A DNA stretch of 64,000 bases from Symmetrospora coprosmae (lineage: Eukaryota > Basidiomycota > Cystobasidiomycetes > Symmetrosporaceae), in NCBI GenBank assembly GCA_008802785.1, contig VUYT01000017.1:248001-312000 (forward strand), read 5' to 3'. The notes beneath the pieces are model-generated. The model worked only from the letters and a program-made list of their open reading frames with translations, made no database searches and was not told the DNA's origin. Positions 6,001 through 54,500 of this stretch are shown here, piece by piece. The position numbers and the translations under genes are program-made. How positions within the stretch are numbered: position 1 is the first letter of the stretch; each line of letters opens with the position of its first letter.

Positions 6001-9000
6001 GTGCAAAGACAGTGGCAGGCTGATCGACGTCGCTCTACGTGCGCCGAACCGACAGACACATCAGACGAAATCGTCATTGGGCTAGGCTAAAGAGTGGGAG
6101 CTTACCTGGTGCTAAGGACATCGGCCAGAAGAGAGCTTGACAGGAGGTCAGCTGGGAGATGTGCCTGTTGTGCATGCACGACAACCGAGTCAGTCATGTC
6201 GGAACAAGCCGACGTGAGGCACGTTTGTACCGCACCCTTGAAGAGTCACCCGCTTCGAAGCACAGATGCTTGACCCATTCGGCGAGCATCTTGCTTTGAT
6301 TCCGGGCGAAGTACGGTTGCAATGAAGCGAGTGTGCGCTCGGAAGCAGAAGCAATACTGAGAAAGGTGGTACTGTTACCGTCCGAGCTTGATGCTGTTCT
6401 AGCGAGTGCGTGAGTCTCGGCCAGGGAGACGATGAGATGCATGTCGACGCGCTCGTTCGGATCCTTTGTGGCGGCTGCAGTGCCGGCGAGCTTCTAAGTA
6501 CCGGACAGACGGTGGAAACTGGATGGTCAGAAGGAAAGGGAAGAACAGCCTGATCTGTATCGTCGGCACACTCACGGTAGCAAGCTTGTCGAGGACAGCA
6601 GAGATGGAAGCCACTTGCTCTGCCGTACTCGCAGTCTGCGCTGCGATGCGAATCTCGTAGAAAAGGACAGCCAGTTCTGTCGGGACAGGCAAGGTTAGCG
6701 CCCCATAGCAACAGGCACGGACGCAAGATGTAGCGAAAGGGACACGCACCGGTTGGAATCGAGCTGAGGGAGCATTCCGTGGCGAGCTGCTCGATATGCT
6801 TCACTTTGTGCCTAAGAGGTGCCGCGAGCTTGGCCGGCAGGAAGTGCGTCCATATCTTCTCAAAGTTGTGCCCGGAGGTCCGCCTGACTGCGGTCTTTGC
6901 ATGGGTGAGAGCAGCGTGCAGCGAGTGCGACTTGTCGAGCACAGCAAACGGTGCACCGTCGAGCGTCTCCTGAAGCCACGAAAGGATCGTCTGGTAGGTG
7001 GCGTAGTCGAGATGCTCCTGAGCGGCTACATGCTCAAGCTCGAAGGCAAGTGCCTCCAGAGAGGTCACTGCCTGCGCCAGCGCAATGTCGTTCTCGGGTG
7101 ATGCTTGCAGAGCAGATGCACAGCTGATTGTAGTCTCGTAGATGCTTTGCTGAAGGGGAAAGATCGATGCGACACCGGTCTCAAGACGTTGGAGGCGAGA
7201 AGGGTGGGCAGCATTGATGCAAGACAACTCTCCAATGCTGTGCTTGCTCGTGCGTCCTTCGACGGCCGTACGTGAGCGGAGAGCCAGAGCCTGTTGCCCT
7301 GATAGCGTCCTGAGCAGACATTTCGCAACGCCATCGATTGCAAGAAGATGGCTCCGTGCTGCAACAGGCACTGCCTTGCGAGCATCGTTGCTGTCAAGGC
7401 TGAACAGGATGGGCTGGTGCAGAGTGAACATCGAGCTCGCCCATCAGCGAAGAGTCTAGCTTCGAGGATCGGACTACACTCACCTTGATAGCGCCGAGGC
7501 TTCCCACAGAACTGATGTAGGCACTTCTCACGCGCAATCGCGGAGCCAAGAACGACATTCCATGGAAGCGTTCGAGGCGAGTATCGGGAGCTCGTCTCGC
7601 AAGAGCTCCGAGCGACTCCGCCGAACAGGCCAGAACGGCCGTGTCCGCGCTGGTAGCAAGGGCTGCAGCGGTGTTGCCAGAACCCTCTGCCGCAGGGCCC
7701 GCGCCAGACGATGCACTAGAGCTAGGGGCGACGACCAGACTGGCGCTCGAAAAGGGTGTTCTTTGTATTGTCGCTGACGGTTTCTGCAGAGCTATTTCTA
7801 CACCGCGATTCCGCATAGCCCGCGAAAGTTCCCCATGGCGTGGGTCTAGCGCCATGACTACCCGGAAGTCCGGATGAGCCTCGACGGTGACGATGGCATT
7901 ATCGACAGCTCCCCTTTCTGCTAGTAGGAGCTTGCCGTTGGGTTCGAAGAGGCCGTTCAAGCGGTCCAGGACCGAGGCATTGCAAAGATTGGCGTTCTCG
8001 ATGACGAAGATGTCACCGCTCTTCATAGCCCGAACGAGCGGACCGTCGATCCACTCGAAGCGCCCAGGCAGAGTGGCAGAGGCGATGGAATCTTGCAGAA
8101 GATCGAAGGCGTGGAAGGCGTCTTGCGAGAGTATCAAAGACGAGCAATGCTTGCGGAAGAGCGCCACCTCCCCTTGCAGCCCCGCGCCGGCAGTCGACGC
8201 CGGTGACGTGCAGCTGCTTGCGACCGTGGCCAGCTGACGGAAGGCCGCATGCGTAGCAGCAAGTTCTGCGCGGGAAGCAGTCGAGGTTGCAAAGTCTTGA
8301 AGGCAAGATTTGATGCGAGCGAGAGCTGACAGACGAAGGCGCGTCAAGTTGGACTGCTCAAAGGTGCCGAGCATCTCGAGGGTGTCGGTCTGAGGATTCA
8401 TGTGGAATGACTGGACGCGTTGGCCGACCAGAGCAGCGTACTGATGTACAACGGAAGTCTTGCCGGAGCCTTGAGGACCAGTAACAATGGCGAGTAGGTT
8501 AGCCTGTAATGAAGCTGCGAGAGTTTGCAGAGGACGGAGCTGAGACTGCTGGAACTGAGTAGGATCGCTTGCGGGTATTGAAGCGAGGGTATCTCTGCGG
8601 ATGACTGGCGTACTACCGATGCGTGCCGCGCGAGGAGTTATTGCTGGTCGTCCTGCACGATCATGAGGAACTGAAAGGCCAAATAAGTCTTGGAAGAGAG
8701 CGATGACTTGCTCCCTATCTGCGTCAGTCCGGAAGCGTTGCAAGAAAAGGATATCGAGGTACTCGACAGGGTGGCCGGGTGACCTCTCGAGGCCGGCTGG
8801 GTGCAGAAGTAGCTGGAACCATCGTAGGAGATCACGGAGGTTGACCTCCCATGGTGCTCCCTGCTGCGCGAAACGGGAGCTTGAGGTCGTGAGAGCATTG
8901 AGCTGTGTGACGAAGCTGACCATCCGCTCGACTGTCTCTTCGTCGGCGGCATTGCTGTAGAGGGCCTTGCAGATGGCGCTGTAGTCGTGCTGCTGGAGCT

Positions 9001-48417: not shown

Positions 48418-49375
48418 TTACTCCGTCCGTTGCCGCTTGTCGGCCTCACTGCCTGGTGTTGGCGCACGCGCAGGCTCCTCTGCCGCAGCTGTTGTCGCTG
48501 TCCCTGCTGCTGCCGTAGTCGTCGTCGCCGTCGCCGCCGCCGTCGCCGTTGTGTCAGCCTGCTGCTCGCCCATGGCCTGCCCTGCGCGCATCGTCCTCCA
48601 CACGGCGTCGTCCACGAGCGCCCTGATCCTCGGCTCTGGGTCCTCCCCCGACGCGTCCGTCTCTGCGAGTATGGCCTGTACCTGGGCGAGCAGGTTCCCC
48701 GCGCGGTTGTTGGTCTCTATCGCCGCCTGGCGCGAGAGCGGGTCCAGCCCTGCTACCTCGCTGGGCGGGCTGAGGTTCGTGTACTGCGCAGCGAGCGCGG
48801 CGACGCTGGGATCCGTCGCTGTCGCGGTCGCAGGCGCTCCCTCTTCGTTCGAGTCTGAGCCAGAGTCCGAGCCAGAGCCAGAGGGCAAGGGCGCCAGCTC
48901 CTCGCCAGTGATGCTGCACAGGTGCGCAGATAGCTCGGGCTGCTCCTCCTGCAGCGCCTGGGCGGGTGAGTGTCCAGCTTTGTTGCGGTGCCTGGGGTCG
49001 GCCCCGAGCTCGACGGCGAGCTTGAGCATGTCGAGCGATTCGGCCGTGTACAGCGGGGTGCTGTCAAGACACGCACAGTGTACGAGTCACGCTCCCTTGT
49101 CAGCGTACCCTCGTATGGCGTGGGAGTGAGACGGCGGAAGGGTGCACCCACTCCCCATCGTTGTCCGCGACGTTGATATCGCCTCCCTTGCTCAGAAGGT
49201 ACCGCAGCAGCTCCGGATGACCCCACGACACTGCGGCATGCAGTGCAGTGTATCCATGCTCGTCCCGGGCGTCTGCGGCCATCTCCTGGACCTCTACGAG
49301 GTGCTTTACACGGTCGAGATCCCCTTCGCCCGCGGCTGTCCACAGGTTGGACTGCGCAGAGGACGTCGACACCAT
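48418..49375 (-). CDS. Ankyrin-repeat protein
   Basis: Exons 49152-49375 and 48418-49060 join in phase to 288 aa. About three ankyrin repeats fill the N-terminal half (NLWTAAGEGDLDRVKHLVEV; HGYTALHAAVSWGHPELLRY; a third with TPLYTAESLDMLKLAVELGA). The C-terminal half is acidic, then Ala/Thr-rich from GCC/GTC-type triplet repeats (about 48480-48560), and likely disordered. The general plan resembles yeast Yar1, an Rps3 chaperone, but ankyrin repeats are too common to assign this. No signal or membrane segment. Confidence 0.85.
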
Positions 49376-49925
49376 GGCTGCGGGGGTGAGGTGATGCGGG
49401 GCAAGTGCAGGGGTGTCCTTGTGCGGACGATGTCAGTGTATGGCGATGTGATGTGATGCGATGCTATGCTATGATGTTGGCAGAAGAAAGAGCTCTGACG
49501 GCGTGTCCGTACTGTACTCCCTGTCCTTCGACGCCGACGTCGCTCTCCCTCTCACCGCCATTTCAATAAGACAAGAACGCCATCGCACCGCATAGCGCAT
49601 AGCATAGCAATCCATCGCTCGCTCGTTCGTCCGCCCGCGCCCGCCGCTGCTTTTGCGCACACACGCCCGTGAGTGAGCGCTTGGCTGGCCGGCATGCTGA
49701 CTGGAGGCATCGGACAGCGTCGCATCGCCTGCAACCACAGCACCAGACGACAGCTGACTCGGGCGAGGACTGCTCCTTCCTGATATCTCAACCCCCACCT
49801 CGTATGCATATGCCTGTCTACGCCGTCCTCCACCGTCCCCGCCCCGTCCTCATCCTGGAACCCACTCTGGGTCCTCAGCGCACATCCATCCAACCTAGAA
49901 CCTAGCATAGGGAACTACCGCCGCC
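49376..49925. promoter_or_regulatory. Divergent intergenic between ankyrin gene and RVS161
   Basis: About 550 bases between two opposed starts; must hold both promoters. GATGTGATG-type short repeats lie at about 49440-49475, and GCATAG runs near 49590-49610. No coding feature supported. Confidence 0.5.
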
Positions 49926-51263
49926 ATGTCGTGGAAGGGCCTCACCAAAGCTGTGTGAGTCCTGCCGCGCTTTCCTCTGCCAGCCAGCTCCGGCGGGACA
50001 AAGGGCCCCGGGCGGGACGGGCAGGCGGGGGCCAGCAAGCGAGAAGGCTGACTTGCGGTTACGGACAACCAAAACCCATCTGCGCGCGCAACGGCGGGAT
50101 CTGCCCAGGAACCGTGCGTCCGCGTCCGACCGCGACTGTTCAGCAGCAGCCACAGATGACCTGGCTGACGCGCCCGCTGACTGACACCGACACGGACACG
50201 GACACGGACACACGCTGGGCAGGCGCGGGGACGACGCTGATGCAAAAGACGGGGCAGGTCGACCGCACCGTGGACAGCGAGTTCAGCCAGGAGGAGCAAA
50301 AGTACCGGACGCTCGAGAAGTCGAGCTCGCTGCTGCAGAAGGAGGCAAAGACGTACCTGGACAGCATCCGCGCCATGACGGCCGCCCAGGCGCGCCTCGC
50401 GGAGACGATTGACTCGTTCTACGCCGACAACAGCGACGCCGCCATGGCCGCCAACAGCTACCGCCGCGCCGTGGGAGAGCTCGAGAGCAAGACGGCCAGA
50501 GAGCTCGACGCACCCTTCCGCGCGACCGTCCTCGAGCCCATTGGCAAGATGTGCAGCTATTGGCCAGAGATCAACAAGGCCATCGAGAAGCGCAACAAGA
50601 AGGTGGGCGATCTCGCTTCTGTGAACTTAGGCTGGGCGTCAGCAGGCGCGGGCGCAAAGCCGAGCGTAGCGTCCCTACGCGCTCTGCAGCGTGCCGTGCG
50701 CCTCTGGACAACCGAAGCTGATGTCAGGCTGAGACGTCTTACGATATGCCCCTTGCCACAGCTCCTCGACTACGACGCAGCGCGCACCAAAGCGCGCAAG
50801 CTCATCGAAAAACCCTCTGACGACGCGAGCAAGCTGCCCATTGCGGAGCGACAGGCCGAAGAGGCGCGCGAGGTCTTTGAGGTGCTCAACCAGCAGCTCC
50901 TGAACGATCTGCCTATTCTTCTGGACCTGCGCGTCAACTTTCTGGACCCGAGCTTCGAGTCGAGTGAGTGCCTGCCTCGCTCGCACGCCGTGTCGCTGGC
51001 GCTCTGCACCATACGATGCGATCGAATGTACAGTAGCTGACGCGATGGCGCTCCGCTGCGATCGGGCCGCGCCCACGCCTCCATCTGCAGTGGTCCGGCT
51101 GCAGCAGATCTTTGCGCAGGAAGGGTACGAAAAAATGGGCGGAGTGCAGCGGTACTTTAGCGAAAATGTCCGAGACGATTATGCGAGCGGAGCCCTCGAC
51201 TCGCAGGTTGAGAACGCCCTTGCCGACCTCTCTACGCTCAGCATCTGCGGCATGGCCGGGTGA
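49926..51263 (+). CDS. RVS161: Rvs161/Hob3 BAR-domain protein
   Basis: Amphiphysin-type N-BAR protein that forms a heterodimer with Rvs167 and tubulates membrane at the neck of endocytic pits; also needed for cell fusion. Exons 49926-49954, 50109-50113, 50223-50602, 50762-50963 and 51091-51263 join in phase to 262 aa (yeast 265). The start MSWKGLTKAVNRAGT matches the amphipathic N-helix of the family only if the 5-nt second exon is included. Other marks: YRTLEKSSSLLQKEAKTYLD, AMTAAQARLAETID, KLIEKPSDDASKLP, LRVNFLDPSFES and the C-terminal LSTLSICGMAG. There is no SH3 domain, as expected for Rvs161. A GGACAC hexamer repeat sits at the 3' end of intron 2 (about 50190-50214). Confidence 0.95.
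50109..50113 (+). other. 5-nt micro-exon of RVS161
   Basis: CAG acceptor at 50106-50108, the five bases GAACC, then the donor GTGCGT at 50114. Joined to exon 1 (ending in GT) and exon 3 (starting GC) it gives Val-Asn-Arg-Ala-Gly, as in the family N-helix. No direct join of exon 1 to exon 3 keeps the frame. Confidence 0.85.
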
Positions 51264-51501: not shown

Positions 51502-54500
51502 TCATGCGGCCACCGTGGGCTGAACCTTCTCGAAGACGTAGAGGTAGGCGTGCGGGATGAGGTTGATAGCGGCCTGTGCTCCTCCGTCGGCACCTACGAC
51601 CTGCAAATGCCGCAACGCAAAGCAAGCGGGTTTCGTGAAGATAAGGAATGTGTCAGTTCCTGCCCAGTTGACCGTGCGCAATTCAGATGTATGAAGGCAC
51701 GCAAGTATTGCACTCTCCCCACCTTCTCGTCATTGAAGAAGACCCAGCCGACCTGGGGCAGGTGAACATGCGCGACATAGTGCCCGCTAGCCGCCGAGGG
51801 CCCTCTGTGCGAGATGAAGGCCTTGAGCCTGTACTCGGCGGGCAAGGCCCTGCTGCCCCTCGGCTCCGCTGCGCCTGTCGGCGACGACGAAGCTTCGGCG
51901 CTCGCCTCACCCTCGGCCTCGCCCGCGTCGTCCGGATGCGAGAAGAGCCACTCGACAGCCGCGTCGGCGCTCCCGCCCGTCTCGCGGAGCGCTTTGCGCG
52001 CCTGATTCGGTGTAAAGCCCATCTCGGCGAGCGCGGCAATCTGCTCTGCCGACGCGCCCGCCGCGCCCGCACTCGCACCCGTTGTCCCAGCGGCGGAGGA
52101 GACTTGCAGCTGTGCAGCCGGGATGGGATCGTCGATGTCGGCGTCCTCCATGTGCGCAAACAGCCAGTTCATGGCCGCATCCGCGTCGCCCGTGTTGCCC
52201 GTCGCGAGGAGCGCCTTCTGCGCGCGCACGGACGGGAAACCCATCCCTTCGAGCTGCGCCATGGCCGTTGCGTTGAACTCGATCGCCGAAGCTGTAGAGG
52301 CGGACGTATCCTCCGGGAGCAGCTCCTCGCCTTCTTGCTGGCCTGTACCCAAGTATTTGTCGAGCGAGAGCGGGCCCGACGAGATGAGAATGGGGACGTC
52401 TGGGGAGATGCGCATCGAATGACACAGTCGGAAGCAAGATGACACAGTGAGTATGCATGCGTGTCAGGAAGTGAGTGACGCTCTGCCGCAGTGACATCCC
52501 CGTACGCACCAACTTTCTGGGGGACCCAGTTGTGCAGCCGGAACCTCGTCGCATGGACGACAAGTGTGTCTGGGAAGGTCGCGAATCTGGTCGACTTATT
52601 GGCGTGCACGTTCTTGTCGCACTTGGGGCACTTGTACTCGATCGTCGCCGAGCTGGTGAGGAGTTTGAGGCACTCCTCGATCTGCACCGGCTCCCATTCT
52701 TCCTTGTCCTTCGCGTCACTGGCTGGACCTGCCGTCCCCATACTGGCTGCTGGCGCGGCAGCAGCGGGCGGAGCGGCATTCTCGCCCTCGATGGGGGCCT
52801 TGCCCTTACCTTCACTGGTGCCGGCGGGTGCAGACTCGTCAATCTCCATGGCGGCAGCGCTGGCGCCCGCCGTCTTGGGCACAAAGGGCACAGGCAGGCT
52901 GAGCGTCTCTTCGGCGACCGTCTTGTACCTGACACCTTTGCAGACGGTGCACTGCAGGCGCTCCTCCATCTCGAACTGGAAGACACGCGTCGGGTCGAGC
53001 GGCGCGTCCTCGCCGTCACCTCCGCTGCCACCGCCCCCGCCAGCGCCACCGCCGCTGCTGGCGCCCGCGTTCCTGCTCTGCCTCTGGATCATGCCAACAA
53101 GGTGCCGGAAGAACTCCTCGGCGTCCTGCTGGCGCATCGTCTTGAACTCCTCGTGGTCCTTGCCCACGAGCGCCTTGAACATGGACGGCCTGATGCCCGC
53201 CTGGAACGGCCGGTTGACGTGCGTGCCCGCGGGGACGGGCTGGCTCGCGCTCGCGGGCTCGAGGACCTCTGACCCGGCCGGCGCGTAGTGTTCCGCGGTC
53301 GCGTCCGCGTCCGCGTCGCCAGCGCGCGGCACTGCGTACCGCCCCGAGAGCAGGCCGTCCCCCACCTTGCTCATCTGGCACTCGAAGCAGCTCGCCGGCG
53401 CCGGGTTGCTGCACAGGAGTGCATGCGCAGACCCTTTTGTAAAGTACCGGTCGGCGAACTCGGGGAGGGCAAAGAGCGTCTGGAGTACGGATGCCATGTA
53501 GCAGCTGCCGTACCGTCGACCATGTGTACGAGTGAGCGAGGTCAGCCGTCCTGGCCCATCAGCTATACGGAAGCGCAGGTACGCACGAGTTGCCCAGGTT
53601 GGCCATGCCCGTGAGGCCCGGCCCAAAGAGCGGCTCTAGATCCTTGCCATCCTCGCCCGTCATTGAGAAATCAAACTTGAGGTTCTGCTCCACCTGGAGC
53701 TCGGTGAGGCTCTTTTCCGTCTTTGTCTGTGTGGCAATGTGGATGCCCCAGTGTGCGAGGTGGGCGCTGAGCGAGGGGTCGGTGCGCTCCTCGTCGCACG
53801 CGTAGCAGTACACGTCGGCGCTCCCGTCCGGCTCGATCGTGCCCAGCTTGACCGAGACTGGGTGCCGCGTCGCGCTGTAGTGCGCCAGCGCGTGCCCGTT
53901 CCCGCCCACCCCGCCGAACTGCTGCCGCCCGCACGAGAGGCCGCCGCACGTCAGACACAGCCAGAGATTGTTGGTCAGCTCGCACTGCGAGCAGTGGGCG
54001 AGGCCTTTCGGATGCAGGACACAGGGATGGAGAATGAGCGCGCGGAGCGAGACAGAGTCGGTGATGGTGACGTTTCAATGGCAGTGGAGCGCAGTGAAAT
54101 GGGAGAGACAGAGTGACGGACCGGTTTCAGTCGATCTGGGCGTTTGTTTGGCGCGAGAACAGGGAGAAGGACGCACCGCTCTGTTCGAGCTGCTTGCTCG
54201 CTTCCTGGATGAGGTCTTTGGAGTGCGAGCAGGACTGAATCTCCTCCTGCCATGCCTTTACGTCTGACTTCTGCGATGACGAGACGGACGAGAGGACGGT
54301 GGCTGTGATGGCGTCCGTCTAGGGGACGGGACAATCCTCGATGGGGGTGTCAGATGCGAGTTGTACCTTGGGTCTCTTCTCGAGGGAGTTTCAAGACGAC
54401 GCCTGCCCGCACCTGCTCGTTCCCTTGAATCTGCAGCCCGCCGCAGCCGTAGCACTTCAATGACGTGTGGAAGTCGTACCTCTCGTGCTCTGGCAGCTCC

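Follow-up and report, generated by a model that had tools for sequence, protein, structure and literature searches.

Coding exons of only a few nucleotides have already been described in fungi. In the bglA genes of Sirobasidium magnum and Rhodotorula minuta, the smallest exons, set by cDNA comparison, are 5 bp and 6 bp long (PMC9142197), and many P450 genes of Phanerochaete chrysosporium contain tiny coding exons, the shortest of 6 bp (PMC1184071). A single-nucleotide exon in Fusarium CYP621A was described from a comparison of 20 orthologous genes and confirmed with SRA reads (PMC12940212). Two further papers, as excerpted, mention micro-exons merely as a TopHat setting (PMC3990503, PMC8022950). 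As for the protein family concerned here, Rvs161 is a BAR domain protein without SH3, and both yeast Rvs proteins carry an N-terminal amphipathic helix, an N-BAR trait that inserts into the membrane (PMC6997364). We found no paper in the open-access literature on the exon–intron structure of RVS161 in basidiomycetes. Fungal exons of 5–6 bp and of 1 nt are thus already published, and the RVS161-type case itself is new; since such exons are in print, its value lies mainly in annotation and in what it may reveal about the use of an acceptor and a donor only five bases apart.

The window, that is, the whole 64,000-nt stretch of DNA that was analyzed, has a G+C content of 57%–64% along its length and comes from a genome of 20.05 Mb on 77 contigs, in which the surveyed genes are intron-rich. 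We found in it a five-exon RVS161-type gene (Table 1) whose joined exons total 789 nt and translate into 262 aa with a single terminal stop. The gene is otherwise intact, and BAR is the only Pfam domain above cut-off in the 262 aa, with no SH3. Judging from its sequence, phases, uniqueness, family fit, and excess over chance, GAACC at 50109–50113 very probably forms a real 5-nt internal coding exon of this fungal gene, whose splicing, and whose probably constitutive use, we infer.

Table 1. Features of the RVS161-type gene, its neighbors, and the hairpin predicted around the micro-exon (positions in the window).
Feature	Positions	Strand	Length	Details
Upstream neighbor	49100..49432	-		Open frame on the strand opposite the RVS161-type gene; presumably ankyrin-like by its motifs
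Exon 1	49926..49954	+		ATGTCGTGGAAGGGCCTCACCAAAGCTGT, MSWKGLTKAV(GT); stops 2 bases into the Val codon; then GTGAGT
Intron 1	49955..50108	+	154 nt	GTGAGT...CAG; branch-like CTGAC, the A lying 57 nt before the 3' end; no AG for 60 nt ahead of the acceptor
Micro-exon	50109..50113	+	5 nt	GAACC, between CAG (end 50108) and GTGCGT (start 50114)
Intron 2	50114..50222	+	109 nt	GTGCGT...CAG; branch-like CTGAC motifs, the A lying 54, 42, and 38 nt before the 3' end; no AG for 65 nt; ACACGG repeats close to the 3' end
Exon 3	50223..50602	+		Opens GCGCGGGG: the two remaining bases of the split Arg codon, followed by protein AGTTLMQKTGQVDRTV...
Intron 3	50603..50761	+	159 nt	
Exon 4	50762..50963	+		From spliced alignment and gene model
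Intron 4	50964..51090	+	127 nt	
Exon 5, including stop codon	51091..51263	+		From gene model
Downstream neighbor	51594..53635	-		Open frame on the strand opposite the RVS161-type gene; presumably ubiquitin-hydrolase-like by its motifs
Predicted hairpin, left arm	50101..50128	+		CUGCCCAG (end of intron 1), GAAC bulge, then CGUG, GUCCG, GUCCG
Predicted hairpin, right arm	50199..50222	+		Ends in CUGGGCAG at the intron 2 acceptor; ACACGG repeats form one arm

The sequence-only reading of this DNA had argued from phase, and the letters and coordinates are as it claimed: exon 1 breaks off after the second base of a codon, and the first two bases of exon 3 belong to a split codon. Joined as GT+GAACC+GC, they read GTG AAC CGC, or Val-Asn-Arg, and the predicted spliced letters across the micro-exon are GCTGT-GAACC-GCGCG. 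The insert had also been called the only short one found to fit, and the 268 bases between exons 1 and 3 indeed contain exactly one AG-N5-GT. Every in-frame direct join of exons 1 and 3 loses the conserved N-helix. Starting from the ATG at 49926, we enumerated the stop-free joins compatible with the exon 3 frame. The one-intron joins (GT or GC donors, acceptors up to 50299) either carry a long intron stretch or drop the NRA of the helix, and the two-intron joins (exon 1 cut at 49952 or 49954, one additional exon of 1–60 nt, acceptor at 50222) number five, with extra exons of 5, 11, 14, 22, and 29 nt.

A purpose-written spliced aligner, which permits exons down to 1 base and GT donors only, chose exactly these five bases at all six intron costs (6, 8, 10, 12, 14, and 16) when guided by a presumed yeast Rvs161 sequence, in an alignment spanning residues 1–262 of that guide. 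Guided instead by a stretch of amphiphysin from a PDB search, which aligns to the RVS161-type N-terminus as KRLNRAQEKVLQK, the aligner chose the same 5-nt exon at both costs tried (8 and 14). Against the Pfam BAR profile (PF03114), the micro-exon form scored 163.0 bits over residues 6–228 of 262, compared with 154.7 bits when Ala-Ala replaced Asn-Arg and 144.0 to 151.4 bits for the seven other joins or starts in the scored set (extra exons of 11, 14, and 29 nt, two one-intron joins, and two downstream starts). Among the scored forms, only the one with the 5-nt exon and its Ala-Ala control matched from profile position 1.

That Val-Asn-Arg completes the conserved N-helix, a further claim of the earlier reading, is borne out by the spliced alignment, the BAR scores, and shuffling. 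By its sequence, the predicted RVS161-type protein has a putative N-terminal amphipathic helix: when the micro-exon is included, the hydrophobic moment of the segment SWKGLTKAVNRAGTTLMQ is 0.509 and the charge +3. When the N-terminal 22 residues were shuffled 5000 times, 17 of the shuffled orders reached this moment, and out of 400 residue pairs Asn-Arg is one of the 8 best by the same measure. The alternatives gave 0.485 for a join from 49953 to 50248 and 0.282 to 0.342 for the other tested forms. Contig C22 carries another BAR gene, RVS167-like in our own naming, whose helix is uninterrupted by an intron (MKGITKAFQRTP, as against MSWKGLTKAVNRAG in the RVS161-type protein), MKGITKAFQRTPHLL being read within one exon with a hydrophobic moment of 0.466. 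This agrees with the three-residue spacing supplied by the micro-exon, in a comparison of gene structures confined to one genome and one assembly. A third BAR gene, which looks GVP36-like to us, has a first coding exon that seemingly consists of just ATGTCCTGGAA (locus L007, minus strand, 2840–2830; 11 nt), followed by GTGAGT. No RVS161 relative was found among the viral contigs and GTDB genomes searched.

Chance matches depend strongly on how much of the pattern is asked for. When the interval between exons 1 and 3 was shuffled by dinucleotides with its ends kept, AG-N5-GT of any kind occurred in 531 of 2000 shuffles, AG-N5-GT reading Asn-Arg in 5 of 2000, and the strict form CAG-NAAYC-GTGNGT in 0 of 2000. 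The aligner score of the micro-exon was reached by none of 600 interior shuffles of the interval. Being permissive, the aligner placed some internal exon of ≤12 nt in 286 of these 600 shuffles, so the evidence lies in the quality of the fit and not in the presence of a tiny exon. Genome-wide (20.05 Mb, both strands), the strict form CAGNAAYCGTGNGT has 8 matches, compared with 9 for a reversed control pattern; by arithmetic from the genome count, about 6e-5 are expected in 268 bases of one strand. CTGAC together with a long AG-free stretch is found at only two of the eight sites, in the RVS161-type gene (60 nt) and on contig C18 (38 nt), and at the remaining six the AG-free stretch is 1 to 7 bases long. 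The motif CTGAC-N12..42-CAG-N5-GTGMGT was matched 29 times against 12 for its reverse, an excess that we do not take as micro-exons because real acceptors with a chance GTGMGT within the exon would also produce it.

An identical 5-nt exon, GAACC, is predicted in a GTPase gene on contig C18 (L060, 803–807; G000:C18:233189-233193), which we take to be of RAB11/YPT3 type from its match to a presumed S. pombe Ypt3 sequence. It sits between CAG and GTGAGT and is required for the P-loop GVGKS-N-LL, just after GKS, and its skipping would shift the frame. The predicted spliced letters are GGCAAGTC-GAACC-TACTCTC, CTGAC lies at 36 nt, the AG-free stretch is 38 nt, and 0 of 200 shuffles matched the score obtained with this Ypt3 guide.

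We also surveyed loci of the Ras, Arf, and E2 families with presumed family sequences as guides, and the C18 exon emerged from this survey too. Of 91 loci, 75 were aligned, and 42 distinct models with a score of ≥150 and a total of 193 introns were kept, repeat models and lower scores being dropped. These models contain 16 candidate internal exons of ≤16 nt (nine multiples of three, seven not), 11 of which were unmatched in 200 shuffles each and the other five matched by 2, 3, 18, 19, and 34 of 200; drawn from three conserved families, the figures are not a genome-wide rate. Nine further loci (L049, L053, L051, L073, L050, L023, L066, L072, and L047), presumably of Ran, Rac/Cdc42, Ras, Arf, Rab, E2, and Rho type by their match to yeast proteins, contain candidates 3 to 15 nt long, and at each of them at least one candidate withstands 200 shuffles. 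The 3-nt candidate of L047 survives shuffling, yet masking it loses only 2.4 score units, and at the E2-type gene L026 a possible exon of 2 nt (AC) is equaled by 3 of 200 shuffles. The rarity that the sequence-only reading had implied for such exons is not supported, as this genome seems to have many tiny exons and basidiomycetes are known to contain them. The survey suggests that the RVS161-type micro-exon fits this genome's habit of tiny exons.

Translation might instead start downstream, at an ATG in intron 2 (MTWLTRP...) or in exon 3 (MQKTG...), in which case there would be no micro-exon and the protein would lack the N-helix. The exon 3 frame is open upstream to 49784, as such a start would need, but the BAR score drops to 151.1 bits from the intron 2 ATG and to 146.9 bits from the exon 3 ATG, the MTWL form has a hydrophobic moment of 0.282, and MSWKGLTKAV in exon 1, together with its matching donor, is left without explanation; we regard this as highly improbable. 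We give just as little weight to joins of exon 1 elsewhere, whether from a GC donor at 49939 to 50222, from a GT donor at 49953 to 50248, or through an exon of 11, 14, 22, or 29 nt. Within the listed join classes all of these are frame-compatible on paper, and the helix moment of the join from 49953 to 50248 comes near that of the micro-exon form. That join nonetheless has the lowest of the five BAR scores obtained for these forms, at 144.0 bits, the others being 151.4 for the GC-AG join and 151.1, 151.4, and 151.3 for the exons of 11, 14, and 29 nt. The conserved NRA is lost or displaced in such joins, and the spliced aligner, within its GT donors, favors the 5-nt exon.

It is scarcely credible that the locus owes its structure to a mistake in sequencing or assembly or to gene decay, in which case exons 1 and 3 would once have been joined directly and the five-base match would be due to chance. 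The sequence does come from a single assembly, but the rest of the gene is intact, the strict match is hardly to be expected by chance in this interval, and the RAB11/YPT3-type gene of the same genome uses the same solution.

On the micro-exon reading, which we prefer, the spliceosome would remove two ordinary GT-AG introns, each recognized across the intron. Because only five bases separate the acceptor of intron 1 from the donor of intron 2, the two sites are probably not occupied simultaneously, and the introns would be removed one after the other. With Val-Asn-Arg joined, the amphipathic helix at the N-terminus of the N-BAR domain would be complete. By translation of the other outcomes, skipping the micro-exon shifts the frame and leads to a stop after 72 codons, and with intron 1 retained, translation ends after codon 10. 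Inclusion would therefore be required for the normal product, the full protein arising from inclusion only. No sign of two useful forms was found at the RVS161-type gene. Domains of SRRM3/4 and cwf21 are tied to micro-exons. Six-frame searches of the genome, with introns ignored, gave 0 matches to the SRRM3/4 C-terminal domain (PF15230) at E up to 1 and one match to cwf21 (PF08312; E 6.9e-17), a pattern in keeping with the basal splicing machinery and not with an animal-type SRRM3/4 programme.

Splice signals were compared with profiles of 162 survey introns not adjoining micro-exons, in which donors are mostly GTGNGT and acceptors mostly CAG. The donors of introns 1 and 2 fall at the 57th and 49th percentiles. 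Their acceptors are CAG but weak, at the 7th and 6th percentiles, compared with the 38th and 62nd for the gene's introns 3 and 4. The branch-like site of intron 1 lies farther from the 3' end than most, the survey histogram peaking at 20–30 nt. At an AG frequency of 0.075, the AG-free stretches before both acceptors are what is expected if the first AG past the branch point serves as acceptor. Longer flanking introns were rejected as a condition for micro-exons, with a median of 84 nt for 27 introns beside micro-exons and 93.5 nt for the 162 others (p 0.24; 189 of 193 introns, the four excluded being beside two low-gain candidates). Nor is an introner family supported as the origin of the introns, as a repeat search that skips simple repeats found the 268-nt interval nowhere else in the genome.

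A hairpin with a main stem of 22 pairs and GAAC bulged is predicted around the micro-exon. The segment 50096–50227, picked post hoc, has a z of -4.7, reached by 0 of 200 shuffles; under even tiling of the window, in which the hairpin is an outlier, a z of -4.5 was reached by 2 of 1066 strand-windows, one of which overlaps the place of the hairpin on the opposite strand. The pairing probability of the end arms is 0.69–0.70 in 49926–50260 and 0.06 in 49800–50602, and wider folds are near chance (z -0.51 for 49926–50260 and -0.73 for 49926–50230). An inverted-repeat search (≥14 nt) gave three pairs, the hairpin arms not among them. The strongest local RNA fold of the tiling lies at 6241–6372 on the plus strand of the window (z -5.7, 25 shuffles). 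As a general micro-exon device the hairpin was rejected, the RAB11/YPT3-type exon having none (z +0.3).

These folds raise the idea, which we consider quite unlikely, of an RNA switch in which CUGCCCAG and CUGGGCAG, the last eight bases of introns 1 and 2, would pair and so hide or expose both acceptors jointly, with GAAC bulged and the intron 2 donor buried in the stem. While the hairpin is folded, there would be no splicing and translation would stop after codon 10, and once it is opened, both introns would be removed. If true, such coupling would suppress the frame-shifting skip and would allow the splicing of an exon too short for exon definition.

If the constitutive micro-exon is as we propose, a conserved membrane-shaping protein would be readable only via a five-base exon. 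To judge from the survey, several of this genome's most conserved genes use such exons. Standard annotation could give wrong N-termini or broken P-loops for these proteins. At the RVS161-type gene, the open frame upstream of exon 3 could lead a gene finder to start at the intron 2 ATG.

Compared with published cases, the RVS161-type gene resembles the bglA genes of basidiomycetous yeasts in combining many introns with a tiny exon, of 5 bp or 6 bp there; unlike it, bglA encodes a glycosidase, and the mean introns there are 81 and 60 bp, against 154 and 109 nt for those flanking the present exon (PMC9142197). The P450 genes of Phanerochaete are, like the RVS161-type gene, from a basidiomycete, whereas the RVS161-type exon is 5 nt long and not a multiple of three (PMC1184071). 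Trichoderma virens Xlr2 similarly has a fungal micro-exon with a functional effect, although that exon is a regulated alternative one, unlike the RVS161-type exon (PMC11121469), and the 5-nt exons of Drosophila Ubx are of equal length but belong to an animal gene (PMC8042270). While the exon of CYP621A is 1 nt long and is documented by 20 orthologues and by reads, and that of the RVS161-type gene is drawn from the sequence of one genome, in both cases incompatible phases inside a conserved motif are resolved by a tiny exon (PMC12940212).
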